The position numbers were made by a program, and so were the translations under genes. Under the pieces are notes generated by a model. It ran no database searches, had not been told where the DNA came from, and saw only the letters and a program-made list of their open reading frames with translations. 38,547 nucleotides of DNA from an uncultured Bacteroidales bacterium. GTDB taxonomy: Bacteria; Bacteroidota; Bacteroidia; Bacteroidales; UBA932. Of this stretch, positions 1 through 26,229 are shown piece after piece; within the stretch, counting starts at the first letter, position 1, and the number at the start of each line of letters is the position of its first letter. Location of the stretch: the NCBI GenBank assembly GCA_900320545.1, contig ONSU01000022.1, positions 1 through 38,547 on the forward strand. Direction: 5' to 3'.

Positions 1-1779
1 ATAGTCTATGCTGCAAGGAAGGTCCTTCAGGCGTTCGGAGAAGGTGTTGAAATGCTGGAGGGCAAGGCTGGTTGTAGGCACCAGCACTGCGGTCTGCTTG
101 CCGTCCACCGCTGCCTTGAATGCAGCACGGATAGCTATTTCCGTCTTTCCGAATCCCACGTCGCCGCACACCAGGCGGTCCATAGGGCAGTCACCTTCCA
201 TATCCCGCTTGACGGCGCGGGATGCAAGTTCCTGATCCGGAGTGTCTTCGTACATAAACGAAGATTCGAGTTCTTCCTGCAGATAGGTATCGGGAGAGAA
301 CGCATAAGCCTTAGAAGCCTTGCGCTTGGCATACAGCTGGATAAGGTCTTTTGCAATGTCCTTGACCTTGGATTTTGCGTTATTCTTCAGCGTTATCCAG
401 GTCTTGGAGCCGAGCTTGTTGATTTTAGGCACCTCGCCGTCCTTGGAGCGGAAACGGGATATTTTATGCAGCGCGTGCACAGACACGAACACCACGTCCC
501 CGTCGCGGTAGGTCAGTTTCACCACCTCCTTCATCCGTCCGAAATCGTCCCGCAGGCGGACCAGTCCTCCGAACACTCCCACGCCGTGGTCTATATGCAC
601 CACGTAGTCGCCTATGTTGAAAGAGTTGAGGTCGTTGATGGTCAGCTGCTCAGACTTCTCCACCGTCCTGCGCAGGCGCACCCTGTGGAAACGGTCGAAT
701 ATTTCGTGGTCGGTGTAGCAGCAGATGCGGTCCTGCTTGTCTATGAAGCCGTTGTGGATGTTTTTACCCGCCAGGAACTTGGGTATCAGGCCTCCGTTCT
801 GCGAAAGAATCGAAAGGATACGGTCCAGCTGGGTCTGTTTCTCGCCGAATATGCAGACTTCGTAGCCGCTCTCCATTTTCTCACGTATGTCGGCCGAAAG
901 CAGTTCGAAATTCTTGTTGAACACAGGCTGGGGAGCTATGTCGAATTCGACGGCATCCTCTTGCTGTTTCGAAAGCGGAGTATCGATAAACACCCTCCTG
1001 TAGCGCTCAGTCAGGAAAAAGAATTCCTTTTCCTTATACATATCAGACGAATCCAGCCAGATGGTAGTGGAATCCGGCAGGATTTCAAGTATATTTTGTC
1101 CGCTTTCGGCTCCTTCCGATATAAGATCGGAAATGATTTCAGCGCTTTCCAGGGCTTCGACGGAGAGTTGGGTATTACAGTCAAAAAGGTTTATCTTTTC
1201 CACTTCATCTCCCCAGAATGATATTCTGTAGGGGTGGTTGCGGGAATATGAGAATATATCTACTATAGAGCCGCGGATGGCAAACTGCCCGGGGGCTGAG
1301 ACGAAATCCACCCTCTCGAAACCTCCCCCCGCGAGTTTAGCTACTATTTCATCCTGAGATATAGAGTCAGAAATCTTCAGTTCGAAGAAAGCTTCTTCTA
1401 TCTTGTTCTTCGAGGGGATGAGTTCTTCTATTGCCTCAGGATAAGTAACCACAAGCAGGCGGGAGCCGTCATAGTTTATTATCTTCTCGACGGCCGAGGT
1501 GCGCTGTACCCCGAGGGAAGATTTATAATTGCTCCTTTCTATATTCTTTCCTGAAGAGGGAAGGAAGAATACACAGTCTCCTTCCACGAGGCTATAAAGG
1601 TCGGAAGAACAATACTCAGCCGCTTCAAGGGATGGAAGAATAATGAAATGAAGCCCTTCCAGGGCTGTTTCGCCAAGCACAAACCACCTTGCGGACAAAT
1701 ATAATCCCCGACAGAAAACATCCTTTCCGGAATGTAATCTGTCTTTAAGGAGCGAAGTTGACTTTTTGTTTATTAACAT
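1..1779 (-). CDS. mfd: Transcription-repair coupling factor Mfd, N-terminal part (3' end outside window)
   Basis: Mfd is the ATP-driven translocase that removes RNA polymerase stalled at DNA lesions and recruits UvrA. The window holds the first 593 codons and runs off the left edge. I see the UvrB-like N-terminal region, then the RNA-polymerase-interacting CarD-like domain (GDYVVHIDHGVGVFGG), then the start of the RecG-like motor with Walker A GDVGFGKTE preceded by MDRLVC. The ATG at 1777-1779 was chosen because the reading frame is open from there and gives an Mfd-like beginning (MLINKKSTSLLKDR). An ATG at 1719-1721 is in another frame. The gene is divergent from ruvB across a 252-bp AT-rich intergenic region. 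Codon use near the start is more AT-rich than in the motor region. Confidence 0.93.
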   Translation of the reverse strand, partial: MLINKKSTSLLKDRLHSGKDVFCRGLYLSARWFVLGETALEGLHFIILPSLEAAEYCSSDLYSLVEGDCVFFLPSSGKNIERSNYKSSLGVQRTSAVEKIINYDGSRLLVVTYPEAIEELIPSKNKIEEAFFELKISDSISQDEIVAKLAGGGFERVDFVSAPGQFAIRGSIVDIFSYSRNHPYRISFWGDEVEKINLFDCNTQLSVEALESAEIISDLISEGAESGQNILEILPDSTTIWLDSSDMYKEKEFFFLTERYRRVFIDTPLSKQQEDAVEFDIAPQPVFNKNFELLSADIREKMESGYEVCIFGEKQTQLDRILSILSQNGGLIPKFLAGKNIHNGFIDKQDRICCYTDHEIFDRFHRVRLRRTVEKSEQLTINDLNSFNIGDYVVHIDHGVGVFGGLVRLRDDFGRMKEVVKLTYRDGDVVFVSVHALHKISRFRSKDGEVPKINKLGSKTWITLKNNAKSKVKDIAKDLIQLYAKRKASKAYAFSPDTYLQEELESSFMYEDTPDQELASRAVKRDMEGDCPMDRLVCGDVGFGKTEIAIRAAFKAAVDGKQTAVLVPTTSLALQHFNTFSERLKDLPCSIDY

Positions 1780-2031
1780 CAATTTCTATTTTGTTAAAAA
1801 CGCGGTTGAAAACCCTGTTAAAAAATCCGGATTATAATGTTGAAATCCGGGGTGGGGAAGTTTTCCACATATTCAGGTAAGGGCTCATAACAAAGTTTTC
1901 AACATTTCTTTTAATTATAAATATTTGATATTAAACCTCTTAGAAATTTTTAAACAAATTCACAAAAGTATAATAATCATCAAATAATAAATTAAAAGAA
2001 CTATATTTGTAATTATAAAGGACGAAACGAA
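1780..2031. other. AT-rich divergent mfd/ruvB intergenic region with DnaA-box-like 9-mers
   Basis: There is no gene here. The left half has three copies of a GTTTTC(A/C)AC word: inverted at 1805-1813, direct at 1860-1868 (extending to TTTTCCACA, one mismatch from the DnaA box TTATCCACA) and direct at 1895-1903. A fourth imperfect copy is at 1839-1846. A palindrome AATCCGGATT is at about 1825-1834. The right half (about 1905-2010) is almost pure A/T and ends in the ruvB promoter. It certainly serves as a divergent promoter region. An origin-like role is only an inference. Confidence 0.5.
2002..2009 (+). promoter_or_regulatory. -7 promoter element of ruvB
   Basis: TATATTTG matches the Bacteroidota -7 consensus TAnnTTTG and ends 22 nt before the ruvB ATG. 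No convincing -33 TTTG is seen. Confidence 0.6.
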
Positions 2032-11175: not shown

Positions 11176-11595
11176 ATGATTTCTTATTTCTTCGAGGACA
11201 CGAAATTTGTTTTCAAGGGCCGGCAGCGCAACAACCGCTGGCTCCGGCTGGTCGCCGAGAGCGAGATCCGCAGGATGGGGGATGTTTCCATTATTTTCTG
11301 TTCGGATCCTTACATTCTGGACATTAACCTGAAGTATCTCCAGCACGATTATTTCACCGATATCATCACTTTTGACTATTGCGAGGGCGACAAGATTTCC
11401 GGCGACCTTTTCATCAGCGTCGACAGCGTCCGTGAAAATGCCGTCCAGTACGGGACGGAGTTCGAGGATGAACTCAACCGCGTGATGGTGCACGGAATCC
11501 TTCACCTTATCGGATACGACGACCATACGAAGGCCGATCAGAAGACAATGCGTGAGAAGGAGAATTATTACCTTTCGCTGCGGGAACTTGTCTAG
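11176..11595 (+). CDS. ybeY: Endoribonuclease YbeY (rRNA maturation)
   Basis: YbeY is a zinc-dependent endoribonuclease needed for 16S rRNA 3'-end maturation and ribosome quality control. The protein has 139 residues, normal for the family. The metal motif is HGILHLIGYDDHT, matching HGxLHLxGYDH with one extra Asp. Upstream, DIITFDY and GDLFIS are the usual conserved blocks. It is followed with no gap by mnmG: the TAG at 11593-11595 abuts the ATG at 11596. Both genes therefore serve translation, one on rRNA and one on tRNA. The start was chosen as the ATG just after the divergent promoter. Confidence 0.95.
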   Translation: MISYFFEDTKFVFKGRQRNNRWLRLVAESEIRRMGDVSIIFCSDPYILDINLKYLQHDYFTDIITFDYCEGDKISGDLFISVDSVRENAVQYGTEFEDELNRVMVHGILHLIGYDDHTKADQKTMREKENYYLSLRELV

Positions 11596-13458
11596 ATGGA
11601 AAAGCGGTACGATATCATCGTTGTCGGAGGAGGACACGCCGGATGCGAGGCCGCAGTGGCCGCCGCGCGGATGGGGTCGTCCGTCCTGCTGATCACGATG
11701 GATATGACGGCGTTCGCCAAGATGTCCTGCAATCCCGCCATCGGCGGAATCGCCAAGGGACAGATCGTCCGGGAGATCGATGCGCTCGGCGGATGCACCG
11801 GACTCGTGACCGACGCCTCGACGCTTCAGTTCCGGACGCTCAATCGCTCGAAAGGTCCCGCGATGTGGAGTCCTCGCGCCCAGTGCGACAAAATGCAGTT
11901 TTCGGCGCTCTGGCGAAAAACCCTCGAAAACACCTCTAACTTAAGGATTTACGCGGATTCTGCGACTTCTTTCCTCTTTGAGAATGCAAAAATTACGGGA
12001 GTCAAGACACTTACCGGGGCAATTTTTCATTCTCAGGCGGTTATTCTGACCGCCGGAACCTTCCTCGGAGGGAAACTTTTCATCGGGCGGACTTCTTTCG
12101 AAGGAGGCCGTATCGGAGAGAAATCTTCTTTCGGCCTCACCGAACAGCTCACCGGCCTCGGCATCGCGACCGCCCGGATGAAGACCGGAACTCCGCCCCG
12201 GATCGACATTTCTTCCGTCGACACCTCCCGGCTTCTTCCGCAGGAGGGCGACCCCGACCCCGACCGTTTTTCCTTCCTTCCGATTCCGTCCGCAGTGCAG
12301 GGCGGCCGTCCGCAAATGCAATGTTACATTCTCCATACGAGCGAGAAGGTGCACGACGTGCTACGCTCCGGCTTTGGAGAATCGCCGCTTTTTACCGGGA
12401 TGATCCACGGGATCGGTCCGCGGTATTGCCCGAGCATCGAGGACAAGATCCGGACTTTCGCCGACAAGGATTCCCACCAGCTTTTTCTGGAGCCGGAAGG
12501 ACGCGATACGAATGAATATTATCTGCAGGGATTCTCGTCTTCTCTTCCGCTCCGGGTCCAGATCGAGGCGATGCACCAGATCGAGGGTTTGGAGCACGTG
12601 GAGATTTACCGGCCCGCCTATGCGGTGGAATACGATTATTTCGATCCGGTCCAGTTGCAGGCCACGATGGAATCCCGCGTGGTGGAGAATCTCTATCTCG
12701 CCGGGCAGGTGAATGGCACGACGGGTTATGAAGAGGCGGCCGCGCAGGGAATTATCGCCGGAATGAACGCCCACCTGAAGATCCACGGCAAGGATCCGTT
12801 CATACTGCGCCGCGACCAGGCCTATATCGGCGTGCTGATCGATGATCTGATCACGAAAGGCGTGGACGAGCCGTATCGGATGTTTACTTCTCGGGCGGAA
12901 TATCGGATCCTTCTCCGTCAGGACAACGCGGATCTCCGGCTGACGGCCCTGTCGCACGAGGCGGGTCTTTGCTCCGAGGAGCGTTATGCGCTGACGATGA
13001 AAAAGTATGAAGATGTGGCCGCTTTGCAGTCTTTCGCCGAGTCGAAGAAGGTCCGTGCCGAGCAGATCAATGATTATTTAACTTCAGTAGGAGAGGCGCC
13101 GATTACGGATTCGAAGAAAGTCGCCGACCTGGTTTCACGTCCTTCCGTCCGTCTTGCTGATGTTCTGCAAAATGTTCCACGTGGAACACTTTATCCCAAA
13201 GAAGTGGTGGAATCCGTAGAAATCGCCATCAAATACAAGGGCTACATCGACCGGGAAAATCAGCAGGCGGAGAAAATTCTCCGGCTTGAAAATCTCAAAA
13301 TTCCCGCCGATTTCGACTTCGACACCGTCTCCGGTCTCTCCATCGAGTGCCGCCAGAAACTCAAGCGCTACCGTCCTTCTTCCATCGCCCAGGCCTCCCG
13401 CATCTCCGGCGTTTCCCCGTCGGACATTTCCGTGCTATTGGTTTATTTCGGGAGATAG
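11596..13458 (+). CDS. mnmG: tRNA uridine-5-carboxymethylaminomethyl modification enzyme MnmG
   Basis: MnmG (GidA) with MnmE installs the cmnm5 modification on U34 of several tRNAs, using FAD, NADH and methylene-THF. The protein has 620 residues. The FAD fold is VVGGGHAGCEAAVAAARMG. Conserved blocks are MSCNPAIGGIAKGQ with the first functional Cys, GPRYCPSIEDK with the second, and AGQVNGTTGYEEAAAQG. The C-terminal helical domain binds MnmE. A perfect parS palindrome at 13173-13188 lies inside the coding sequence and encodes NVPRGT. In many bacteria mnmG sits close to oriC and parAB, which fits. The mnmE, rsmG and parAB genes are not in the window. Confidence 0.97.
   Translation: MEKRYDIIVVGGGHAGCEAAVAAARMGSSVLLITMDMTAFAKMSCNPAIGGIAKGQIVREIDALGGCTGLVTDASTLQFRTLNRSKGPAMWSPRAQCDKMQFSALWRKTLENTSNLRIYADSATSFLFENAKITGVKTLTGAIFHSQAVILTAGTFLGGKLFIGRTSFEGGRIGEKSSFGLTEQLTGLGIATARMKTGTPPRIDISSVDTSRLLPQEGDPDPDRFSFLPIPSAVQGGRPQMQCYILHTSEKVHDVLRSGFGESPLFTGMIHGIGPRYCPSIEDKIRTFADKDSHQLFLEPEGRDTNEYYLQGFSSSLPLRVQIEAMHQIEGLEHVEIYRPAYAVEYDYFDPVQLQATMESRVVENLYLAGQVNGTTGYEEAAAQGIIAGMNAHLKIHGKDPFILRRDQAYIGVLIDDLITKGVDEPYRMFTSRAEYRILLRQDNADLRLTALSHEAGLCSEERYALTMKKYEDVAALQSFAESKKVRAEQINDYLTSVGEAPITDSKKVADLVSRPSVRLADVLQNVPRGTLYPKEVVESVEIAIKYKGYIDRENQQAEKILRLENLKIPADFDFDTVSGLSIECRQKLKRYRPSSIAQASRISGVSPSDISVLLVYFGR
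13173..13188. promoter_or_regulatory. parS: parS centromere site 1 (inside mnmG)
   Basis: TGTTCCACGTGGAACA is a perfect 16-bp palindrome of the near-universal ParB-binding type. It uses the codons GTT CCA CGT GGA ACA, several of them uncommon in this GC-rich gene. Confidence 0.8.
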
Positions 13459-13499
13459 ATGTTTAGAAATAATTTCTTCGCGAATTTTAGGGATGTGAT

Positions 13500-13685
13500 C
13501 TATTCCGTATAATAGTTTTCTCCCGTTAATTCCCATCCAGGAAAATAGTTCTTAAGCATTTCCCCTGCAAGATTTAGATTATAACGGTATAGTGTCATAC
13601 CCTTCTTCTTATTGCCGCCACACGCTTTTACATAGCGTCTCATTCGATCTTCGGAAAGGATTTCTTCAAAGTCACAGTATTTCAT
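13500..13685 (-). pseudogene. Truncated Abi-like protein gene (N-terminal fragment)
   Basis: The frame encodes 61 residues beginning MKYCDFEEILSEDRMRRYVK and containing ACGGNKKKGMTLYRYNLNLAGEM. This looks like the N-terminus of Abi-like (abortive-infection family, Abi_2) proteins, which are normally about 300 residues. After that block the sequence diverges (KNYFPGWELTGENYYTE) and stops at 13500, 42 bp from the mnmG stop. The remainder of an Abi protein is absent. In-frame upstream starts would add MNITKILLI, but the ATG at 13683-13685 matches the family start. The DNA is more AT-rich than its neighbours. I read it as a decayed phage-defence or toxin gene. A functional 61-residue protein cannot be excluded. 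Confidence 0.5.
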
Positions 13686-13694
13686 TACAAAAAG

Positions 13695-13726
13695 TTTGTT
13701 TAGATAAATTATTAGCAGTATCTTTG
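13695..13726 (+). promoter_or_regulatory. Complete Bacteroidota promoter (-33 and -7) with no downstream ORF
   Basis: TTTG at 13695-13698, a 20-bp spacer and TATCTTTG at 13719-13726 match the consensus TTTG-N19-21-TAnnTTTG. This is the best promoter in the window. It fires rightward into structured DNA without a reading frame. Confidence 0.65.
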
Positions 13727-13731
13727 TTATG

Positions 13732-13975
13732 TTCATTCCCGGTAACCTCTGGAGAAATCCAAGTTATCGGGTTTCGTTTTACAAAGAAGCAACCAATTAT
13801 CCGTTAGTGCAAATGACTGACGGATAATTATGAAAAGTGGCATTAGAAGCTAGTCTGACGATGTTATTTTAAATAAATAATAGTGCAACTTGCACGGGTT
13901 ATTCTTGCACAAGTTATTATTTAAACAAGTCTCTAACTATCGTCTGATATAGAATCTTATAGAAAATAAGTCTAT
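13732..13975 (+). ncRNA. Candidate structured non-coding RNA between mnmG and ruvA
   Basis: No ORF follows the promoter, but the predicted transcript has three strong foldings. Hairpin 1 pairs CCCGGTAAC (13738-13746) with GTTATCGGG (13763-13771) and is capped by TGGA-GAAA-TCCA, a GNRA tetraloop. Hairpin 2 (13795-13829) is a 14-bp stem with one G-U pair and a 7-nt loop. Structure 3 pairs GACGAT-GTTA (13857-13866) with TAAC-ATCGTC (13934-13944, one-nt bulge). Inside it AAATAATA (13875-13882) pairs with TATTATTT (13915-13922), and ACTTG (13888-13892) with CAAGT (13910-13914). The 3' end is uncertain; a weak CTTAT/ATAAG hairpin lies near 13955-13970. It is not obviously tmRNA, RNase P RNA or SRP RNA. 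A 6S-like RNA or a Bacteroidales-specific RNA is possible, as is DNA-level function next to parS. Confidence 0.45.
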
Positions 13976-13988
13976 TTATCCGAAAAAT

Positions 13989-14004
13989 TGTTCCACGTGG
14001 AACA
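13989..14004. promoter_or_regulatory. parS: parS centromere site 2 (intergenic, next to ruvA stop)
   Basis: TGTTCCACGTGGAACA is identical over 16 bp to the copy inside mnmG, 816 bp away. Because it follows the ruvA stop on the minus strand and is followed there by ATTTTT, it could also work as a weak terminator. Confidence 0.75.
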
Positions 14005-14012
14005 GAGGTGCC

Positions 14013-14600
14013 CTAGAGTTTTTTGAGGGCGGCTTTGATGAGGTCTTCGACGCGGGCGGAGGGGGTTTCCTTGAGGAGGCCGGGGATGACTTTGGCGATG
14101 GCCGCTTTGGAGAAGCCGAGCATCACGAGGGCTGTAGTGGCTTCGTCCGCGATGGCGGAATTTTCGGCCACGAAAAGGGCGCTGTTGTCGGCACCGCCGC
14201 CCTTGACGATCTTGTCTTTGAGCTCCAGGATGAGACGCTGGGCGCTCTTGAGACCGATCCCCTTGACACTTTTGATCTTGTTGACGTCCTCCCCGATGAT
14301 GGCGTTACGGATCTCGTCGGCGGTGAGCGACGAGAGCATCATCCGGGCGGAATTGACACCGATGCCGGAGACGCTGACCAGCAGGCGGAAGAGTTCCCGC
14401 TCGTCCTTGGTGGCGAAGCCATAGAAAAGTTCCTCGTCTTCACGGAGATAGTGATGGATATAAATGGTTGCGTCGCCTTTGCCCTGGAGGGCTTCGAAAG
14501 TCTGGAGAGAAACGAGGCAGCTGTATCCGATGCCGCCGCATTCGATGATGATTTCGGCGGGGGTGCACTCGGTGATGTGTCCTTTGATGTAGTCGATCAT
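14013..14600 (-). CDS. ruvA: Holliday junction branch migration protein RuvA
   Basis: RuvA is the tetramer that binds four-way junctions and loads RuvB. The protein has 195 residues from the ATG at 14598-14600 (MIDYIKGHI, the standard RuvA start). A TTG at 14609 would overlap the -7 promoter element and is rejected. Domain I is an OB fold. Domain II holds two helix-hairpin-helix motifs, LVSVSGIGVNSARMMLSSL and IKSVKGIGLKSAQRLILEL. Domain III at the C-terminus (ATTALVMLGFSKAAI to IKAALKKL) contacts RuvB. The ATG lies only 6 nt after the -7 element. Confidence 0.95.
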   Translation of the reverse strand: MIDYIKGHITECTPAEIIIECGGIGYSCLVSLQTFEALQGKGDATIYIHHYLREDEELFYGFATKDERELFRLLVSVSGIGVNSARMMLSSLTADEIRNAIIGEDVNKIKSVKGIGLKSAQRLILELKDKIVKGGGADNSALFVAENSAIADEATTALVMLGFSKAAIAKVIPGLLKETPSARVEDLIKAALKKL

Positions 14601-14760
14601 AATGTGCAAAGATAACGATAAAATTGTATTTTTGTGTTGAAATATCTAACTTTGTTCGTTTCATTCCGGATGATGGGGAGAGAAGGATGGCGGCGCCCTG
14701 GAAGGAATATATAAAATATTGATATTTAATTAGTTGTACACGAACTTAAACCATTTTAGC
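14601..14760. other. Divergent ruvA / secreted-protein promoter region
   Basis: There is no confirmed gene here. The minus-strand -7 element of ruvA is CAAAGATA at 14607-14614. The plus-strand promoter has TTG at 14624-14626, a 20-bp spacer and TAACTTTG at 14647-14654. That gives the downstream mRNA a leader of about 100 nt. The leader contains a 14-codon ORF (14670-14714, MMGREGWRRPGRNI); I have no evidence that it is translated. Confidence 0.5.
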
Positions 14761-15573
14761 ATGAGGAAAATCTTTTCAGTCATCGTCTTGTCGCTGTGCC
14801 TCTGCGCCCTTGCCAAGGCCCAGGATGTCATTACCAGAACGGATGGTACGGACATTAAGGCCAAGGTGACCGAGGTCCTTCCGGATGTGGTGAAATACAA
14901 GAAATTCACTTATCTGGACGGCCCCGTTTTCACGATCCGCAAAAGCGACATTCTGATTATCCGTTATGAGAACGGGTCCAATGAGGTGTTTGCCGGTCAG
15001 TCTCCGGCGGCGGCTTCTCAGCAGCAACCGTCTCAGTCCGCCCGGCCGGTGGCGATCCCCAATGCCAAAACGTTTTCGGAAGGATTAACGGTGGTTTCCG
15101 GCGATGTCGGTGTCCTTCGCAAGAGCGCAAAGGGTTATGCCACCTTCGATTATTCACAGACGCTTGTCGGCGGGAAGCCGCTCGCGCAGTTCCTTCGCGC
15201 CAACGGTCCCGAATACGAGCGCGACTGGCCGAAAGAGTCGGAGAGCGCCAACCAGTATTTCCCGAATTACTACAATAAAAAATTCAAAAACGGCCTGGCT
15301 ATGCAGTTTCAGGAAGCCGGAACGGATTACATCCTGACGCTGCATATTCAGGAACTGGACCTCGGCTTCACCGGCGGCAACTTCGTTCCCTTCGCCAACA
15401 AGGCCGGCGGCGCCGTCATCTCGGGCGTCCTGGAAGTCCGTGATGTGAAAACGGGCTCTACGACCCTTGTGATCGCGTTCAACAACATCAAAGGCGTCCC
15501 TGCCTATACGCAGGAGCAGCGGCTCGGCTGGGCCTATAACGAGCTGGTCAAGAAACTCGCAAAACTGAAGTAA
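14761..15573 (+). CDS. Secreted protein with a DGTDIKAKV-type N-terminal module
   Basis: This 270-residue protein has a Sec signal peptide (MRKIFSVIVLSLCLCALAKA, cleavage before QDV). Residues about 20-85 form a small beta-rich module (TRTDGTDIKAKVTEVLPD, VKYKKF, KSDILIIRYENG). A Gln/Pro/Ser linker comes next, then a C-terminal domain of about 170 residues with ERDWPKESESANQYF and YILTLHIQELDLGF that I cannot name. The next gene shares the same N-terminal module but a different C-terminus. The ATG at 14761 was chosen because it begins a good signal peptide; an upstream extension to 14734 does not. The role is unknown; periplasmic or outer-membrane-associated location is likely. Confidence 0.75.
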   Translation: MRKIFSVIVLSLCLCALAKAQDVITRTDGTDIKAKVTEVLPDVVKYKKFTYLDGPVFTIRKSDILIIRYENGSNEVFAGQSPAAASQQQPSQSARPVAIPNAKTFSEGLTVVSGDVGVLRKSAKGYATFDYSQTLVGGKPLAQFLRANGPEYERDWPKESESANQYFPNYYNKKFKNGLAMQFQEAGTDYILTLHIQELDLGFTGGNFVPFANKAGGAVISGVLEVRDVKTGSTTLVIAFNNIKGVPAYTQEQRLGWAYNELVKKLAKLK

Positions 15574-15574
15574 A

Positions 15575-16411
15575 ATGAAAAGACTCATTACCTTATTCAT
15601 AATTGCCCTCGGCGTCGCTTTCTCCGCCGCGGCTCAGGATATCGTTACGAAGAAAGACGGTACGGATATCAGGGCGAAGATTCTGGAAGTCAATCTGGAC
15701 AATATCCGCTACAAGTCCTTCTCCAACCTGGAGGGTCCGACATACACACTTCCCCTTTCGGAGATTCTGATGATCCAGTACGCCAATGGTGAAAGGGAGA
15801 TCATCAACCAGAGCGCTCCCGTCCCCCAGCAGCCCGCCGGGCAGACCTACGCGCCTGTCGAGACGCTTCCTGCGGATACGCACATCTATGCTTCCGACCC
15901 CTCCCGGATTCATCCCGATATGAAGTATTGGGATTACCGGAAACTGTATGATAAGAAAGATTACCGTTCTTTATCCAACCCGAGGTATAGTACAGGCCGT
16001 GCGGCTTTTAACCTCCTGTTCCCGGGTATCGCCCAGTTTACGATGGGAGAGCGCAAAAGGGGAATCAACTATGTCGTCCCTGCCGCCATTATGAGTGCCG
16101 TGATGTCGGCCGGTGCCGGTCTGACGTATTATTATGGAGAAGTGGAAGGTTGCGGGTATGAATTTGAAGAGAATCCCCCGATGTTCATTATGCTCGCCGG
16201 AGCCATCGGGTATTTCATTACGGAAATGTGCTCCATCTCCAACGCCGTGAAGATCGCCAAGACCAAGTCGCTGTACCTGCACGATCTGGACGCGATGGCG
16301 GGCTCGCAGCAGTATGGTGTGAAATTGGAGGTCTCGCCGTTCATTGCACCCGCTTATACGCCGAAGGGCCTGCAACCCTCGGCCGGACTTTCCCTTGCGC
16401 TTAAATTTTAA
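15575..16411 (+). CDS. Secreted/membrane protein with DGTDIRAKI-type N-terminal module and two membrane spans
   Basis: This 278-residue protein follows the previous stop by one nucleotide and is translationally linked to it. It has a signal peptide ending AAAQDI. The next 65 residues closely match the preceding protein (KKDGTDIRAKILEVNLD, RYKSF, LEGPTYTLPLSEILMIQYANG). After a Pro/Gln linker the C-terminal part has two hydrophobic segments: VPAAIMSAVMSAGAGLTYYY and MFIMLAGAIGYFITEMCSIS. It contains LLFPGIAQFTMGERKRGINY, a motif reminiscent of TM2-like or outer-membrane-associated DUF proteins of Bacteroidota. The last residues look beta-like (LSLALKF). Function unknown. Confidence 0.7.
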   Translation: MKRLITLFIIALGVAFSAAAQDIVTKKDGTDIRAKILEVNLDNIRYKSFSNLEGPTYTLPLSEILMIQYANGEREIINQSAPVPQQPAGQTYAPVETLPADTHIYASDPSRIHPDMKYWDYRKLYDKKDYRSLSNPRYSTGRAAFNLLFPGIAQFTMGERKRGINYVVPAAIMSAVMSAGAGLTYYYGEVEGCGYEFEENPPMFIMLAGAIGYFITEMCSISNAVKIAKTKSLYLHDLDAMAGSQQYGVKLEVSPFIAPAYTPKGLQPSAGLSLALKF

Positions 16412-16419
16412 CGGAAAGG

Positions 16420-17646
16420 ATGACGCAATCGGACATAAGGGCCCTTTTTCCGGCGCTTGCGCAGCAGGTGTACGGGAAGCGGTTGGTGTATCTGGACAAT
16501 GCGGCGACGGCCCAGAAACCCGCAGGCGTAATCGATAAGTATACGGAACTCAGCCGTTTCTATACGGCGAATGCGCACCGTGCCGTACATTATCTGTCCG
16601 GCAAGGCGACGGAAGCGTACGAAGGGGCGCGGGATGCCGTGGCGGCCTATATCGGCGCCGGCAGCCGGGAGGAGGTTATTTTCACATCCGGAACGACGGC
16701 TTCCATCAATCTCGTGGCGTTCTCTTTCGGGGAGGCCTTTATCCGCGAGGGGGACGAAATCATCGTCACCGAGACGGAACACCACAGCAATATCGTTCCC
16801 TGGCAGATGCTCTGCGAGCGGAAAAAAGCCGTGCTGAAGGTCTGGAAGCTCGATGAGGACGGCTTCCTTTCGATGGACAATCTGGCCCGGAAAATTACGG
16901 ATAAAACCCGCTTTGTGGCCGTGACGCACATCTCCAACGTGCTCGGAATGGTCAATCCGGTAAAGGATGTGGTGGATTTCTGCCATTCCTGGAACGTGCC
17001 CGTGCTCATCGACGGGGCGCAGGGAATTGTCCACGAACGGGTCGACGTGCAGGCGCTGGACTGCGATTTCTATGCATTTTCAGGCCATAAGATCTATGCG
17101 GCGACCGGCACCGGTGTCCTTTATGGCAAGAAAAAATGGCTCGACGCGATGCCGCCGTATATGGGTGGCGGCGAGATGATCGGGACGGTCCGTTTCAGCG
17201 GAACGACATACGCGCCGCTTCCGGGGAAATTCGAGGCGGGAACGCAGAATCTTACCGGTGTTCCGACGCTTGTTCCTGCGTTGGAATTCTTGAAGGAAGC
17301 ACTTGAGAATAAGGAAGTTGTCGAAGAACAGGCCCGCATTCGGGAATATCTCCTGGACTGGTTCGCGACCCGGAAGGATATCCATCTTTTCGGTGTTCCA
17401 CGTAGAACATCCGACAAGATCAACCTCTACAGCTTTACGGTGGAGGGCGCGCATCACGAGGACCTGGCGCTGATTCTCGACAAGATGGGCGTCGCCGTCC
17501 GGAGCGGACAGATGTGCGCGGAGCCGCTGATGGATCATTTCGGCGTCACGGGAATGCTGCGGGCGTCCTTCGCCCCCTACAACACGCTCGAGGAAGCGGA
17601 ATATTTGACGAAATGCCTCGACAAGGCGATCAATATGGTACGATAA
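16420..17646 (+). CDS. sufS: Cysteine desulfurase SufS
   Basis: SufS is a PLP enzyme that takes sulfur from cysteine, forming a persulfide that SufE carries to the Fe-S scaffold. The protein has 408 residues. Conserved blocks are YLDNAATAQKP, EVIFTSGTTASINLVA, TETEHHSNIVPWQ and the PLP lysine in FSGHKIYAATGTG (Lys224). The catalytic Cys366 lies in RSGQMCAEPLM, a group II desulfurase pattern. The sufE-SufT fusion follows after one nucleotide. sufB, sufC and sufD, often next to sufS in this phylum, are absent from the window. A near-perfect parS site at 17394-17409 lies in the coding sequence and encodes VPRRT. Confidence 0.95.
   Translation: MTQSDIRALFPALAQQVYGKRLVYLDNAATAQKPAGVIDKYTELSRFYTANAHRAVHYLSGKATEAYEGARDAVAAYIGAGSREEVIFTSGTTASINLVAFSFGEAFIREGDEIIVTETEHHSNIVPWQMLCERKKAVLKVWKLDEDGFLSMDNLARKITDKTRFVAVTHISNVLGMVNPVKDVVDFCHSWNVPVLIDGAQGIVHERVDVQALDCDFYAFSGHKIYAATGTGVLYGKKKWLDAMPPYMGGGEMIGTVRFSGTTYAPLPGKFEAGTQNLTGVPTLVPALEFLKEALENKEVVEEQARIREYLLDWFATRKDIHLFGVPRRTSDKINLYSFTVEGAHHEDLALILDKMGVAVRSGQMCAEPLMDHFGVTGMLRASFAPYNTLEEAEYLTKCLDKAINMVR
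17394..17409. promoter_or_regulatory. parS: parS-like site 3 (inside sufS, one mismatch)
   Basis: TGTTCCACGTAGAACA differs from the perfect palindrome only at 17404 (A for G). It is read in the same frame as the mnmG site (GTT CCA CGT AGA ACA) and uses an AGA codon uncommon in this gene. Confidence 0.6.
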
Positions 17647-17647
17647 C

Positions 17648-18400
17648 ATGGCAACATTGCAGGAAAAGAAAAACGCAGTCATCGAGGATTTCTCGATGTA
17701 TGACGAGTGGCTGGACAAGTATGAATATCTGATCGAACTCGGCAAGAATCTCGCCCCGTATCCGGAGGAGAAACGGACCGATGATTATTTGATAAAAGGT
17801 TGTCAATCAAGAGTTTGGCTTAACTGGAGAATGGAGGACGGCCGCCTTTGGTTCGCCGCCGACAGCGATGCGATCATCACCAAAGGCATCATTTCGCTGC
17901 TCATCGGCGTCTATTCCGGCGAAACGCCGTCCGACATCGCGGCGGACGACTTCGGCTTCATCGAGTCGATCGGCCTCAAGGAAAACCTTTCCCCGACCCG
18001 TGCCAACGGCCTCGCCTCGATGATCGCCCGCCTCAAGGAGGCCGCCCGGGAGAATATGGAGGTGCTGACTGCGGATGACGCCCGCGAGATCGCCCCGCTC
18101 TATTCCAACGTCGTCCTGGCCCTCAAGCAGGTCTACGATCCGGAAATTCCCGTGAATATCTACGATCTGGGCCTGATCTACGACCTGCAGATCGGCAAAG
18201 ACCGCGTCGCCCGCATTCGGATGACCTTCACCGCCCCCAACTGCCCGATGGCGGACGAGGTGATGATGGACGTGAAGAACAATGTCGAGGACGTGCCCGG
18301 CATCAAGGGCTGCGAGATCGAACTCGTATTCGAGCCGGCCTGGGACAAGAGCATGCTCTCGGACGCGGCGAAGATCGAACTCGGAATGGAAGACGAATGA
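17648..18400 (+). CDS. SufE sulfur acceptor fused to a SufT/MIP18 (DUF59) domain
   Basis: This 250-residue protein combines two Fe-S assembly domains that are usually separate. Residues about 1-140 are SufE, with the sulfur-accepting Cys52 in LIKGCQSRVWL and the end of the fold in SPTRANGLASMI. Residues about 150-250 are a DUF59/SufT domain with YDPEIPVNIYDLGLIYDL and TAPNCPMADEV, whose Cys is typical of the family. SufE activates SufS; SufT-like proteins help mature Fe-S proteins. The fusion directly after sufS would tie sulfur transfer to cluster delivery; this coupling is inference. The stop overlaps the folK start (ATGA at 18397-18400). Confidence 0.92.
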   Translation: MATLQEKKNAVIEDFSMYDEWLDKYEYLIELGKNLAPYPEEKRTDDYLIKGCQSRVWLNWRMEDGRLWFAADSDAIITKGIISLLIGVYSGETPSDIAADDFGFIESIGLKENLSPTRANGLASMIARLKEAARENMEVLTADDAREIAPLYSNVVLALKQVYDPEIPVNIYDLGLIYDLQIGKDRVARIRMTFTAPNCPMADEVMMDVKNNVEDVPGIKGCEIELVFEPAWDKSMLSDAAKIELGMEDE

Positions 18401-18825: not shown

Positions 18826-20132
18826 GCGTCGATGGCCTCGGAGAGGTACTGGTCCATCTTTTTCTTGACCTGAGCGCGTTCCTCCTTGGACAGCGAGTAT
18901 TTGCCGCTGTGGCCTTTCCAGGCGCAGGGGTGCATGACTTTGGAGGAGGCGGGGCAGACGTTGTAGACGGCCCAGACGTCGGCGGGAGGACAGGTCAGGT
19001 CGATGAGGCCGACGTTGACGACGAGTTCCCCGGTATAGTGACGCATAAAGTTGGCTGCATCGTAGTAGGGCGCGACTTTCGCTTCGGGTGAATCTACGCC
19101 CGCGCGCTCCAGGGGTTTATTCCAACCGCTGAGGCGGCCGACGAGCATTCCTCCCACGTCCCACATCGCCGGGACATCCACGACCACCATGCTGACACGG
19201 GGATCCAGACCGGCCAGTGCGGCGCTCTGGGCGCCTCCCTGGCTGCCTCCCGTGACGAGCACCCGCTTCCCGTCCCATTCCTTGCGGGAGCAGAGATAAT
19301 CCAGGGCGCGGACCAGGCGGAGGAACATCCCGTTGAAGTAGAAGGATTCCCGGTCTTTGACGGGCCATCCGGAGTAGCCGTTCAGCTCTTTTCCGACAGC
19401 CTCGTAGTAGGCGTCGTCCTGCCCGTTGAGGATGCCGTGGGCGTTGATGTCCAGGGCGATGGCGCCGTTGCCGGATTTGGCGAGTTTGACGGCATCCTTA
19501 ATGGTGGCTTTGGTCCAGCGGTCCGTCATTTTGCCCGCGCTGTGGGCCTTGATGGCAATGGGAAGGCTGTGCGGAGCGGCATTCCGCGGAAGCGCGAGAT
19601 AGCCCCGGACCGGCCGCGCGGTGATGCAATTCACTTCCAGGTCATAGCAGACATAGTCCAGACTGTCCTTTCCGGGAACGGCGACGGGCGTCAGCCTGAC
19701 TTCCATTTTCTGACGCCGCATCTGCTTCAGTTGTTTCCGCCAGAATTTCCGCCAGTCCTTCGGCTCGTCGAATCCGGGCCGGAAGTCTTCCGGCGAGACG
19801 ATGGCTCCCACCGTGGTGGAATCCTTCGGGTCGGCGGGATCCGCGAGGCGGAACATCAGCGCAACGGCCTCGTCATAAGCCCCGCTGAATACCTGGCTTT
19901 TCCCGGCGGGAAGAAGGGTCTCCCGCGCTTCCTTGAAGTAGCCGTTCTGATAGATTTTGACGACGGCGGGCGTCTCTTTGCCGACTTCCGCGTAGACTTT
20001 GACGGTGTCACCTTTGGCATACACGCCTTCAAACCCCTTGTCGAGGGAGAGACGTACGTCTTCCAGAAAACTTTGCCCGTAGGCTGTCCCCAGCGCAAAA
20101 AGGGCGAGAATAAAGCAGAGGGTGCGTTTCAT
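18813..20132 (-). CDS. Secreted acetylxylan esterase-like (AXE1) alpha/beta hydrolase
   Basis: This 439-residue protein is probably a periplasmic or secreted carbohydrate or xenobiotic ester hydrolase. It has a signal peptide (MKRTLCFILALFALGTAYG). An N-terminal Ig-like region of about 100 residues precedes the AXE1 alpha/beta-hydrolase domain. The nucleophile elbow is VTGGSQGGAQSAA, the acid is in VGLIDLTCPP and the histidine is in WKGHSGKY. ARPVRGYLALP is also family-typical. The ATG at 20130-20132 is preferred over a TTG at 20141, which overlaps the -7 element. It is divergent from glyS. No xylanase or other glycoside hydrolase is nearby, so the substrate is open. Confidence 0.85.
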   Translation of the reverse strand: MKRTLCFILALFALGTAYGQSFLEDVRLSLDKGFEGVYAKGDTVKVYAEVGKETPAVVKIYQNGYFKEARETLLPAGKSQVFSGAYDEAVALMFRLADPADPKDSTTVGAIVSPEDFRPGFDEPKDWRKFWRKQLKQMRRQKMEVRLTPVAVPGKDSLDYVCYDLEVNCITARPVRGYLALPRNAAPHSLPIAIKAHSAGKMTDRWTKATIKDAVKLAKSGNGAIALDINAHGILNGQDDAYYEAVGKELNGYSGWPVKDRESFYFNGMFLRLVRALDYLCSRKEWDGKRVLVTGGSQGGAQSAALAGLDPRVSMVVVDVPAMWDVGGMLVGRLSGWNKPLERAGVDSPEAKVAPYYDAANFMRHYTGELVVNVGLIDLTCPPADVWAVYNVCPASSKVMHPCAWKGHSGKYSLSKEERAQVKKKMDQYLSEAIDAYLQ

Positions 20133-22133: not shown

Positions 22134-24197
22134 ATGAAGAAAATACTGCTTTCCGCCCTGGCGGCGATGGCCGCCCTGACGGCGTCGGCGGACGAAGGGA
22201 TGTGGCTGTTGCCGCTCCTGAAGTCGCTGAACGCCGATGTGATGGCGGCCGAGGGCTGCCGGCTCACATCCGAACAGATTTACAGTGTCAACCACAGCTC
22301 CCTCAAGGACGCCGTCGTGATTTTCGGCGGCGGGTGCACCGGGGAGATCATCTCCGACGAAGGCCTGCTGGTGACCAATCACCACTGTGGCTACAGCAGC
22401 ATTCAGGCGCTCAGCACGCCCGAGCACAATTATCTGATGGACGGATGGTGGGCGCGGAGCCGGGAGGAGGAGATCCCCTGTCCGGGGCTTAAGGTCGTTT
22501 TCCTCGTCAGCATGGAGGATGTGACCGACCGGGCCGCCGCCGCGCTGGCCGAAGGCGGGAAGGAGGCGCTGGAGAAGTTCAAGGAGGACCTGGAAAATTC
22601 GGCCGCGGCGTCGAATCCCGGCTGCGAGGCCGAGGTGGAATCCTTCTACAGCGGCAATGTCTTCTACCTGATCCTCTATAAGACGTACGACGATGTCCGC
22701 TTCGTCGGCGCCCCGCCGTCCGCGATCGGCAAATTCGGCGGCGACACCGACAACTGGGTCTGGCCGCGGCATACGGGCGATTTCTCGATGTTCCGCGTGT
22801 ATGACGAAAACGGCAGGCCGCTCAAGCCGAAAAAGAGCCTGGAGATCTCCCTGAAAGGGGTGAAGGAGAACGATTTCACGATGATTCTCGGCTATCCCGG
22901 CAGCACCCAGCGCTACCAGACGGCGGCCGAGCTCGAGATGATGCTCGCTTCCCAGGAGATCAGCATCGCCTGCCGGACGATCCGGCAGAATGTGCTCTGG
23001 AAATGGATGGAGGCCGATCCGGTCATCCGGCTGAAGTATGCCGACAAATATGCCGATTCGTCCAACGGATGGAAGAAATGGCAGGGGGAGAAACTCTCCT
23101 TCAAGCGACTCGGGCTGCTGGATATGAAGCGCCGGGACGAGGCCGCGTTCCAGCGGTGGGCGGATTCCGATCCGGACCGCAAGGCGAAATATGGAACGGC
23201 CCTGCAGGAGATTGCGGAAGGCGCCGCCCGGGCGCTCGATCCCCTGTGTGCGTTCCAGCTCCTTTACGAGGCACCCTACAGCATAGAACTGCAGCAGTTT
23301 GCCCTGATGTATTTCTATGCCACGATGCAGGACGAGCCGGTGGATGAGGTTCTGGCGGCGTACAAGGATTACGATGTCGCCGTCGACAAGGAAGTGGCGT
23401 CCGTGATGCTGAAGTACTATCAGCAGCACGCGCCGGCGGTAATGGCGCTCGATTCGCTCGGGACGGGCTTCGAGAAGTTCTCCGAAATCGACATCGACAA
23501 GTACGTCGATTATCTGTACCGCGAGAGCATGTTCACTTCCCGGGAGAAGCTGGAGAAGGCCACGGCCGACACCACGGGCCTGGCGCTCCGGCTGATTGAC
23601 GATCCGGCCGTGGTGCTGTCGACCCGGGTTATGGGCTATCTGTTCTCGGTGTATCCGGTCGTCACGGCGCTTGAAAAATCCGACGCTTCCCGCACCTATA
23701 CGGCCGGTCTGCTGGAATATTACGGTGACAGGCCGCTGTATCCGGACGCCAACTTCACGATGCGCCTTACCTATGGCCACGTGCTGCCCTATCTGCCGAA
23801 GGACGGTCTCAAATATGCGTATTATACCACGCTGGAAGGCGTGATGGAGAAGGAGATTCCGGGCGATATGGAATTCGATGTTCCCGCGAAATTGAAGCAA
23901 CTGTACGCCGCCCGCGACTATGGCCGCTATGCCGATAAGAAGGACGGGAAACTTCATCTCTGCTTCATCACCGACAACGACATTACCGGCGGCAACAGCG
24001 GCTCTCCGGTGCTGGATGCGGACGGCCGCCTCGTGGGCCTCGCCTTCGACGGCAGCTGGGAGTCGATGTCCTCGGATGTCCTCTTTGAGCCGGAACTCAC
24101 CCGCTGCATCTGCGTGGATATCCGTTACGTGCTGTTCTGCGTCGACAAGCTCGGCGGTGCGGGCTACCTTCTCAAAGAAATGAAAATCAAGAAATAA
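22134..24197 (+). CDS. S46 family dipeptidyl-peptidase, DPP7-like (first copy)
   Basis: S46 enzymes release dipeptides from the N-terminus of oligopeptides in the periplasm, supplying energy in asaccharolytic Bacteroidota. The protein has 687 residues with a signal peptide ending SADEGMW, the conserved mature start. The catalytic His is in TNHHCGYSSI, the Asp in PRHTGDFSMFR and Ser622 in TGGNSGSPV. The residue 18 positions after the Ser, which is Arg in Asp/Glu-specific DPP11, is Gly here (LAFDGSWE). That predicts DPP7-type preference for hydrophobic P1 residues. It is followed after one nucleotide by a paralogue. Confidence 0.93.
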   Translation: MKKILLSALAAMAALTASADEGMWLLPLLKSLNADVMAAEGCRLTSEQIYSVNHSSLKDAVVIFGGGCTGEIISDEGLLVTNHHCGYSSIQALSTPEHNYLMDGWWARSREEEIPCPGLKVVFLVSMEDVTDRAAAALAEGGKEALEKFKEDLENSAAASNPGCEAEVESFYSGNVFYLILYKTYDDVRFVGAPPSAIGKFGGDTDNWVWPRHTGDFSMFRVYDENGRPLKPKKSLEISLKGVKENDFTMILGYPGSTQRYQTAAELEMMLASQEISIACRTIRQNVLWKWMEADPVIRLKYADKYADSSNGWKKWQGEKLSFKRLGLLDMKRRDEAAFQRWADSDPDRKAKYGTALQEIAEGAARALDPLCAFQLLYEAPYSIELQQFALMYFYATMQDEPVDEVLAAYKDYDVAVDKEVASVMLKYYQQHAPAVMALDSLGTGFEKFSEIDIDKYVDYLYRESMFTSREKLEKATADTTGLALRLIDDPAVVLSTRVMGYLFSVYPVVTALEKSDASRTYTAGLLEYYGDRPLYPDANFTMRLTYGHVLPYLPKDGLKYAYYTTLEGVMEKEIPGDMEFDVPAKLKQLYAARDYGRYADKKDGKLHLCFITDNDITGGNSGSPVLDADGRLVGLAFDGSWESMSSDVLFEPELTRCICVDIRYVLFCVDKLGGAGYLLKEMKIKK

Positions 24198-24198
24198 G

Positions 24199-26229
24199 AT
24201 GAAAAAACTGGTTCTCTGGGCCCTGGCCCTCACGCTGGTCCTGCCCGCCCGGGCGGACGAAGGAATGTGGCTTCTGCCGCTCCTGGAGAAGATGAACGGC
24301 AAGGCCCTCCGGGAGGCCGGCTGCCGCCTGACTCCGCAGGAAATCTACAACATCAACGGTTCGTCCCTCAAGGATGCCATCGTGCATTTCGGAGGCGGCT
24401 GCACGGCCGAGATCATTTCGGCCGAAGGCCTGCTGGTGACCAACCATCACTGCGGCTACAGCAGCATCCAGGGGCTCTCCACGACGGAGCACAACTATCT
24501 GATGGACGGCTGGTGGGCCAAAACCCGCGATGAGGAACTCAAGGTGCCGGGTCTCACGGTCACCTTCCTCCGGAAGATGGAGGACGTGACGGATGCCTAT
24601 GACAAGGCGGAGGACAAGAGGGCCTTCGTGAAGGAGGCCGTCGACCGGGCCGAGAAGGACAATCCGGGCTGCAAGGCCTTCGTCACTTCGTTCTACAACA
24701 AGAACTACTGGTACCTTATCACGACGAGGGTGTATCGCGACATCCGCTTCGTCGGCGCCCCGCCCGCCAGCATCGGCAAATTCGGCGGAGAGACCGACAA
24801 CTGGATGTGGCCCCGCCATACGGGCGATTTCTCGATGTTCCGCGTGTATGACGACGACGGTAAGCCGCTGCGCGCCGTCCGCCATCTGAAAATCTCCCTG
24901 AAGGACCTCAAGGAAGGCGATTATACGATGATTCTCGGCTATCCGGGCCGCACCCAGCGCTTCCAGACGGCCGCCGAACTCAACCAGATGATCGCCACGA
25001 ACCGCATCCGCATCGATGCCCGCACCGTGCGGCAGCAGATTATGTGGGATGCAATGTGCGCCGATCCCGACGTGCAGCTCAAGTACGCCGACAAGTACGC
25101 CTCTTCCGCCAACGGCTGGAAGAAGTGGCAGGGCGAGGAGCTGGCGTTCGGGAAACTCGGCATCATCGCCCGCGAGGAGCGGAAGGAGGCCGATTTCGTG
25201 AAATGGTACAGCGCCAAGAAACCCCGCGCCGAGAAGTATCAGGAGGCGCTCAGCGATATCAGCACCGCGGTGGAAGGCCGGGACGAGGCGATGAAAGCGC
25301 TTACCCTGCTCTACGAAGCGCCGCTTCGGATCGAACTCCTGACGCTGGCCAACGTGCTCGGCCGGCGCGGCCCCGAGGCCCTGAAAGATTATTATAAGGA
25401 TTATGTGGAGGAGATCGACCGCAAGGAGGCCGTGGCCCTGCTGACATTCTACCGGGAAAGGGCTCGGAAGGAGGATTATCCCAAGGATCTCGGCGACGGT
25501 TCCGACTTCGCCACGATGGAGATCGGCCCATACGTGGATTATCTCTTCGACACCAGCGTGCTGACTTCTCCGGAGAAGCTGGAGAAGGCGCTCGCCGAGG
25601 AGGGTGGCCTGGAGAAGATCAAGGCCGATGACCCGGCTTTCGCCCTCCGGGATGCCCTTATGGCGGAGATGATGAAGTTGTATCCGGCCCTAGAATCCGT
25701 GAATGAGCAGTATGAAAAGGGCAGCAAGGCTTTCGCGGCCGGCCTTCTCGAATGGGAGAAAGGCAAGCCGTCCTATCCGGATGCCAATTCCACGATGCGT
25801 CTCACGTATGGCCACGTGATGCCCTATTCCCCGAAGGATGCCGTCCTGTTCCAGTATTACACGACGCTGGAGGGAGTGATGCAGAAGGAAGATCCGTCCA
25901 ACCCGGAATTCATCGTTCCCGAGAAGCTCAGACGGCTCTGGGAGGCGAAGGATTACGGCCGGTACGCCGCCGCGGACGGACGGCTCCGTACCTGCTTCCT
26001 CACCAACAATGACATCACGGGCGGCAACAGCGGCTCGCCGGTGATGGACGCCGACGGCAACCTCATCGGTCTCGCCTTCGACGGCAACTGGGAGTCGATG
26101 TCCTCGGACGTGATGTTCGAGCCCGACCTTCAGCGCTGCATCTGCGTGGACATCCATTACGTGCTGTTTCTCGTGGATAAGTTCGGCGGCGCCGGCCATC
26201 TGATCAAGGAAATGGAATTCGCGAAGTGA
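24199..26229 (+). CDS. S46 family dipeptidyl-peptidase, DPP7-like (second copy)
   Basis: This 676-residue paralogue of the preceding gene has a signal peptide (MKKLVLWALALTLVLPARA) before the conserved DEGMW. The catalytic His is in TNHHCGYSSI, the Asp in PRHTGDFSMFR and Ser611 in TGGNSGSPV. The specificity position is again Gly (LAFDGNWE), so it is DPP7-like rather than DPP11-like. The two copies share the same framework along their length but diverge in the helical domain (about residues 250-480), which shapes substrate access. A complementary rather than redundant specificity is a reasonable inference. Its stop overlaps the mrp start (TGATG). Confidence 0.93.
   Translation: MKKLVLWALALTLVLPARADEGMWLLPLLEKMNGKALREAGCRLTPQEIYNINGSSLKDAIVHFGGGCTAEIISAEGLLVTNHHCGYSSIQGLSTTEHNYLMDGWWAKTRDEELKVPGLTVTFLRKMEDVTDAYDKAEDKRAFVKEAVDRAEKDNPGCKAFVTSFYNKNYWYLITTRVYRDIRFVGAPPASIGKFGGETDNWMWPRHTGDFSMFRVYDDDGKPLRAVRHLKISLKDLKEGDYTMILGYPGRTQRFQTAAELNQMIATNRIRIDARTVRQQIMWDAMCADPDVQLKYADKYASSANGWKKWQGEELAFGKLGIIAREERKEADFVKWYSAKKPRAEKYQEALSDISTAVEGRDEAMKALTLLYEAPLRIELLTLANVLGRRGPEALKDYYKDYVEEIDRKEAVALLTFYRERARKEDYPKDLGDGSDFATMEIGPYVDYLFDTSVLTSPEKLEKALAEEGGLEKIKADDPAFALRDALMAEMMKLYPALESVNEQYEKGSKAFAAGLLEWEKGKPSYPDANSTMRLTYGHVMPYSPKDAVLFQYYTTLEGVMQKEDPSNPEFIVPEKLRRLWEAKDYGRYAAADGRLRTCFLTNNDITGGNSGSPVMDADGNLIGLAFDGNWESMSSDVMFEPDLQRCICVDIHYVLFLVDKFGGAGHLIKEMEFAK

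Follow-up and report, generated by a model that had tools for sequence, protein, structure and literature searches.

The stretch analyzed here, called the window throughout, comprises 38,547 nucleotides of an uncultured Bacteroidales bacterium and is contig C23 of an assembly with 58 contigs (93.3% complete). It carries the genes ybeY, mnmG, ruvA and sufS. Three copies of a palindromic word resembling parS, the site bound by ParB, lie at this locus: inside mnmG, between mnmG and ruvA, and inside sufS (Table 1). We ask what holds these words in place and what they say about the position of the replication origin.

Two copies read TGTTCCACGTGGAACA exactly, and the third has one mismatch. The two copies in coding sequence share the same reading frame, VPRGT in MnmG and VPRRT in SufS. 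This is as described in the original prediction, including the positions and the identity of mnmG as a host. Its expectation that such a word is very rare by chance also holds: the window has three matches at ≤3 mismatches, compared to a mean of 0.07 in 100 shuffles, of which 0/100 reach at least three. It further proposed a search of the whole genome. In the full assembly (2,546,607 bp), the same three words are the only matches at ≤2 mismatches and span 4.2 kb, so within this 93.3% complete assembly the words are few, clustered and not scattered.

Table 1. Features of the window discussed in the text
Feature	Position	Strand	Evidence and remarks
parS site 1	13173..13188	.	Perfect palindrome inside mnmG; VPRGT, residues 527-531; codon conservation and motif alignment
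parS site 2	13989..14004	.	Perfect palindrome in the 554-bp mnmG-ruvA gap
parS site 3	17394..17409	.	One mismatch, inside sufS, reads VPRRT
mnmG (tRNA uridine-5-carboxymethylaminomethyl synthesis enzyme)	11596..13458	+	TIGR00136, E=1.2e-244, 813 bits; hosts site 1
sufS (cysteine desulfurase)	16420..17646	+	TIGR01979, 501 bits; hosts site 3
ybeY	11176..11595	+	Conserved neighbor; the ybeY-mnmG stretch carries parS in other families of the class
ruvA	14013..14600	-	TIGR00084; conserved neighbor by synteny
Candidate oriC	1700..2031	.	AT-rich, upstream of ruvB, DnaA-box-like words; may derive from another strain

The genome encodes a single ParB (G000:C26:103200-103730; TIGR00180, E=4.3e-55), whose closest solved structure is 6t1f, a ParB (E=2.7e-50). 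The open reading frame (ORF) directly before it is ParA-like, recognized by eye from its Walker motif. The dnaA gene lies on contig C8 and is truncated where that contig ends. Both parAB and dnaA are on contigs other than the window's. Locating these genes had been suggested as a check. The presence of ParB agrees with a parS-type identity of the words, as do the palindrome match, the clustering and the codon conservation described below.

Codon conservation and distribution of the sites

Codon conservation was measured on loci fetched by the MnmG protein and not by the motif. Loci with <62% identity to the window MnmG and near-duplicates (>97%) were dropped, leaving 38 of 57, window included; these are the best matches to the window MnmG and therefore lean toward its genus. 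At the site, the valine, proline and glycine codons are invariant (GTT, CCA and GGA, each 38/38), and of the 35 loci with arginine, 32 encode it by CGT. The modal codon fraction averages 0.476 over the 211 conserved columns compared. The V, P and G columns rank 2, 3 and 4 among them and R ranks 7; rank 1 is an unrelated serine. Invariant codons at these columns, set against a mean of 0.476, show selection on the DNA, which the original prediction had suspected from the use of otherwise avoided codons such as CCA. For CCA, that avoidance is real: it makes up 14% of proline codons elsewhere in the relatives' mnmG. A wider set has CCA at the site in 51/55 loci, which overstates conservation because loci L005-L034 were fetched by motif.

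The peptide is also nearly constant. Among 71 same-family MnmG sequences (28 motif-fetched and 43 protein-fetched loci, with some genomes present twice), 60 have VPRGT, 5 VPRET, 3 VPHGT, 1 VPCGT, 1 VLRRT and 1 none of these. The 43 protein-fetched loci divide into 39 VPRGT, 3 VPHGT and 1 VPCGT. In an AlphaFold2 model (mean predicted local distance difference test score, pLDDT, of 82), the stretch is predicted to form a loop (527-534) between two C-terminal helices (520-526 and 535-546). Many family MnmG sequences (L005-L045, at about 527-541) have in-frame insertions beside VPRGT, mostly after it. The stretch at these positions is then 41-169 residues long instead of about 15; by eye, an LPY or PW motif recurs in some of the insertions.

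Four loci (L071, L073, L076 and L089) have lost the in-gene site by a VPHGT or VPCGT change. A downstream site lies 4-22 bp beyond mnmG in the first three and is absent from L089. Compensation of the loss by a downstream site is only suggestive, since L071, L073 and L076 share VPHGT and may represent one event.

At ≤1 mismatch, 241 of 298 genomes of the family have a site, with 0 to 4 sites per genome. In the family loci examined, sites are mostly in mnmG at identical codons, and often a further parS-like site follows right after the gene, as seen downstream of mnmG in several relatives. Relatives matched by MnmG are Bacteroidales or Bacteroidetes metagenome-assembled genomes, many of them rumen or faecal; one is Candidatus Cryptobacteroides faecavium, and on the basis of this name the window's genus is taken as Cryptobacteroides. 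Across the phylum, TGTTYCACGTGRAACA is present in 183/247 genomes. From these genomes we surveyed 29 loci in other families of the window's class, 16 of which belong to a single family. In 23 of the 29, mnmG or ybeY lies within 1.5 kb of parS, so the link between parS and mnmG is probably older than the family. The word at the VPRGT position was seen in the window's family alone. Restriction of in-gene parS to the family is ruled out by locus L142, from another family, where mnmG contains a parS word (2038-2053) at another position, again in this frame, reading VSRGT.

The sufS copy has a more limited distribution. Among 12 SufS sequences compared, the motif reads VPRRT in the window and L041 and VPRGT in L038, and L059 carries ENVPRGT as an insertion of six columns. 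The underlying words match 15/16 bases in the window, L038 and L059 and 13/16 in L041, so same-frame parS-like words occur in sufS of 3/11 relatives. The other 8/12 sequences have no parS-like word at that place. With the word in 4/12 sequences, the sufS copy has been gained patchily and later, in the reading frame that the mnmG copy also uses. Separately, the 3-kb locus L031, which contains sufS and ruvA and has no mnmG match, has two parS-like words at 1501-1543; there the word cluster may have moved toward sufS.

Position of the replication origin

We fitted origins in two single-contig relatives of the same family, G010 and G066, sampling 40 blocks of 20 kb per genome (800 kb in each, out of 2.66 Mb and 2.38 Mb, respectively; contigs taken as circular). 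Raw GC skew of these blocks was dropped as evidence because it largely tracks gene orientation. The model instead uses skew at four-fold sites with gene orientation as a covariate and replichore terms. Grids were 20 kb for the fit, 40 kb for the bootstrap and 80 kb for the permutations; the permutation grid is coarser than the fit grid, which makes this control lenient.

In G010, the origin falls at 0 kb (58/60 bootstraps at 0 and 2/60 at 40 kb), and parS-like words are at 68 and 669 bp. In G066, it falls at 1.50 Mb (bootstraps 1.44-1.56 Mb), and parS is at 1.5098 Mb. No permutation reaches the skew gain (0/60 in each genome). The terminus is less well placed than the origin in both. In G010 and G066, the skew-defined origin and the syntenic parS sites are thus no more than about 20 kb apart. 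Both genomes have the window's gene order, ruvB-frdA-frdB-hflX-like-ybeY-mnmG / ruvA-sufS-sufE-folK-glyS; in G066, about 4.3 kb of other genes separate mnmG and ruvA. The dnaA gene is 1.03 and 0.79 Mb away from the origin and parS block in these two genomes, so although dnaA could be located as suggested, it does not accompany the sites. The original prediction also pointed to a plus-strand bias of genes to the right of 14.7 kb. This is weak evidence, since several genes to the left (ruvB, frdA, frdB, ybeY and mnmG) are also on the plus strand.

The array of DnaA-box-like words upstream of ruvB is a candidate oriC, which DnaA may bind. The AT-richest 300-bp stretch of the window is at the ruvB start (1751-2050, 72%), and six of the window's eight TTWTNMACA words fall within 187 bp at 1770-1956. 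Across 53 upstream-of-ruvB regions (30 of the genus and 23 of other genera), these words occur 4.3 times per 500 bp, compared to 0.19 in shuffles, with at least one in 48/53 regions; the consensus was derived from the same regions and was therefore chosen after seeing the data. The first DnaA-box consensus used, TTATNCACA, has an exact mean of 0.19 per 700-bp region and 3.4 matches at ≤1 mismatch, compared to 1.0 expected; k-mer enrichment then gave the TTATCAACA and TTTTCAACA words. By density of TTWTYMACA in sampled blocks, the ruvB cluster is the densest in G010 (5 in 400 bp) and ties with 1.380 Mb in G066 and with 260.6 kb in G223. With the terminus held fixed, a finer skew grid gives best origins of 8 kb for G010, whose cluster is at 16.3 kb, and 1.490 Mb for G066, whose cluster is at 1.494 Mb, so the skew switch is near the cluster in both. 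The AT-rich mnmG-ruvA gap (13459-14012) was considered as oriC and rejected: none of the eight TTWTNMACA words is there, and the gap is 5-6 bases in L036 and L037.

The window may be chimeric or recombinant between the candidate oriC and the parS sites. G+C content at third codon positions of the measured genes is 0.48-0.62 to the left of about 5.3 kb and 0.68-0.81 to the right, with the step inside frdA. The best relative shifts too: the window RuvB is 97% identical to that of G210, whose MnmG is only 70% identical, and the closest MnmG is that of G270 (84%). The same assembly has a second ruvB region on contig C32, which ends inside frdA and has boxes before its own ruvB (TTATCAACA twice and TTTTCAACA once). 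Compared to G270:C61, the C32 region is 75% identical and the left end of the window 69%; the figure for the 680-base frdA piece just left of the step is 81%. At about 4.6-5.4 kb, inside frdA, the contig may therefore join two strains, or recombination may have occurred there. All parS sites are on the right part and the oriC candidate is on the left part.

ParABS interpretation and alternatives

Of the three outcomes that the original prediction named as refuting it, none has appeared as far as the data reach: the words are not scattered, a parB gene is present, and the skew-defined origin of two relatives is close to parS. From these comparisons, we hold with high confidence that the three words are chromosomal ParABS parS sites in the probable origin region, that the mnmG copy is held by selection on DNA and that the sufS copy was gained later and patchily. 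ParB, encoded on another contig beside the ParA-like ORF, would bind the three words and spread along the flanking DNA, and together with ParA would separate newly copied origins. Selection on the DNA keeps the mnmG copy in place in the family. The centromere would then dictate the codons at the site and, very likely, the VPRGT residues of the loop. The locus is very probably an example, and an unusually clear one, of a gene that has kept a centromere in its coding sequence.

We lean, by a modest degree, toward a broader reading: that the centromere has been captured by a tRNA-modification gene in this family. Selection for ParB binding would fix VPRGT in MnmG and re-create it in frame elsewhere (in SufS, and as VSRGT in the mnmG of L142), while the adjoining MnmG loop accommodates in-frame insertions of as many as about 150 residues. 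Protein sequence would thus be shaped by a DNA element throughout the family.

The clearest alternative is that selection acts on the VPRGT peptide for its role in MnmG and that the palindrome simply follows from it. The near fixation of VPRGT and its predicted location in a C-terminal-domain loop fit this idea. However, protein selection does not fix synonymous bases, and the V, P and G codons are invariant. The same word also occurs outside genes, at site 2, and in the unrelated protein SufS. Outgroup MnmG sequences (53-57% identity; L046-L055, L057, L058, L060 and L061) have VPRGT in 0/14 cases, yet in 5/14 of these loci (L050, L051, L054, L055 and L057) mnmG is followed by a parS-like word at a distance of 2-20 bp. 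We consider a purely protein-level explanation improbable. About as improbable, and if anything slightly more so, is a site for another regulator, such as a transcription factor recognizing an E-box-like CACGTG, that controls the mnmG-sufS region. Site 2 is intergenic, and dimeric regulators typically bind palindromes of about this size. Against this, two of the three copies lie well inside coding sequence, and sites are tied to the mnmG locus in most of the class loci surveyed. The word also matches the parS consensus at 14/16 bases in the passages of PMC10197239 and the Myxococcus xanthus gel-shift duplex at 15/16 in those of PMC3778016. Chance clustering or a small repeat can be given almost no weight: a reversed control pattern does also have one match at ≤2 mismatches in the same assembly, but none of the window shuffles reach three matches, and relatives have the site at the same codon position.

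Several observations weigh against the preferred reading of the words as parS sites near the origin. No site at ≤1 mismatch is found in 57/298 family genomes, and 6/29 class loci (L146-L149, L153 and L154) have neither mnmG nor ybeY within 1.5 kb. The in-gene site is broken in 4/43 protein-fetched loci (VPHGT three times, VPCGT once). The perfect 16-mer is kept in 23/38 protein-fetched loci, with changes at the outer bases and the center; the word begins with T in 32 loci and with C in 6, and the last codon is ACA in 30, ACT in 5 and ACG in 3. Proximity to the origin, part of the original prediction, is borne out in G010 and G066, which share the window's gene order, and gives no signal in the window's own genus. 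On a 361-kb same-genus contig (G223:C3), the skew breakpoint is at 335 kb and parS at 260.6 kb, about 74 kb apart, and the fit is not significant (13/200 permutations). Pooled flanks of 10 of the 14 same-genus genomes listed show no origin signal (side coefficient -0.008, 95% range -0.033 to 0.017). Either skew in this genus is too weak or the origin is elsewhere; synteny favors weak skew, and the origin of this genome would then be near the sites.

The system resembles chromosomal ParABS (ParB/Spo0J) in its 16-bp palindrome, in the few clustered copies near what is probably the origin and in the single ParB beside a ParA-like ORF. It differs in that one copy is widely kept in the coding sequence of mnmG across the family and that parAB is on another contig. 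In Bacillus subtilis, a parS site is likewise in coding sequence, inside spo0J; the host there is parB itself, whereas here it is a tRNA-modification gene. The passages of PMC9564211 do not include that example. In M. xanthus, passages of PMC3778016 describe ParB binding to a gel-shift duplex with the same 15 bases, TGTTCCACGTGGAAC; the consensus duplex of this electrophoretic mobility shift assay contains TGTTCCACGTGGAACG, identical at 15/16 bases to the window's perfect copies. According to the same passages, M. xanthus has 24 sites, which lie upstream of parAB at about 30 kb from ori, unlike the three sites over mnmG-sufS here.

Origins of the OMM12 gut set (12 bacteria, two of them Bacteroidetes) were placed by parS clusters and GC skew, according to passages of PMC10197239, which warn against dnaA as a marker because origins do not always accompany it; mnmG, in-gene sites and the window's genus are unmentioned in those passages. 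Passages of PMC4755523 describe a large distance between oriC and dnaA as common in Bacteroidetes. The oriC they give for Prevotella intermedia is similar to ours in having a DnaA-box cluster at the skew transition, far from dnaA, and differs in that parS is mentioned 0 times in them. In the open-licence literature, we found no title that deals with parS sites in mnmG or with the origins of Cryptobacteroides.

If correct, the parS assignment gives a location for the centromere, and probably also for the origin of replication, in a large group of uncultured gut and rumen bacteria whose dnaA does not mark the origin. The mnmG parS site and the box array upstream of ruvB could serve as a marker for origin-based growth-rate estimates from metagenomes. 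The locus would also show cleanly how a signal for chromosome maintenance can set the codons, and probably the residues, of an enzyme that modifies tRNA.

Neighboring genes

Two ORFs without a family match lie between ruvA and sufS. Downstream of sufS are a SufE-type ORF at 17648, folK at 18397 and glyS at 20122. Further along, at 22134-26229, the window has two Dpp7-like peptidase genes in tandem.

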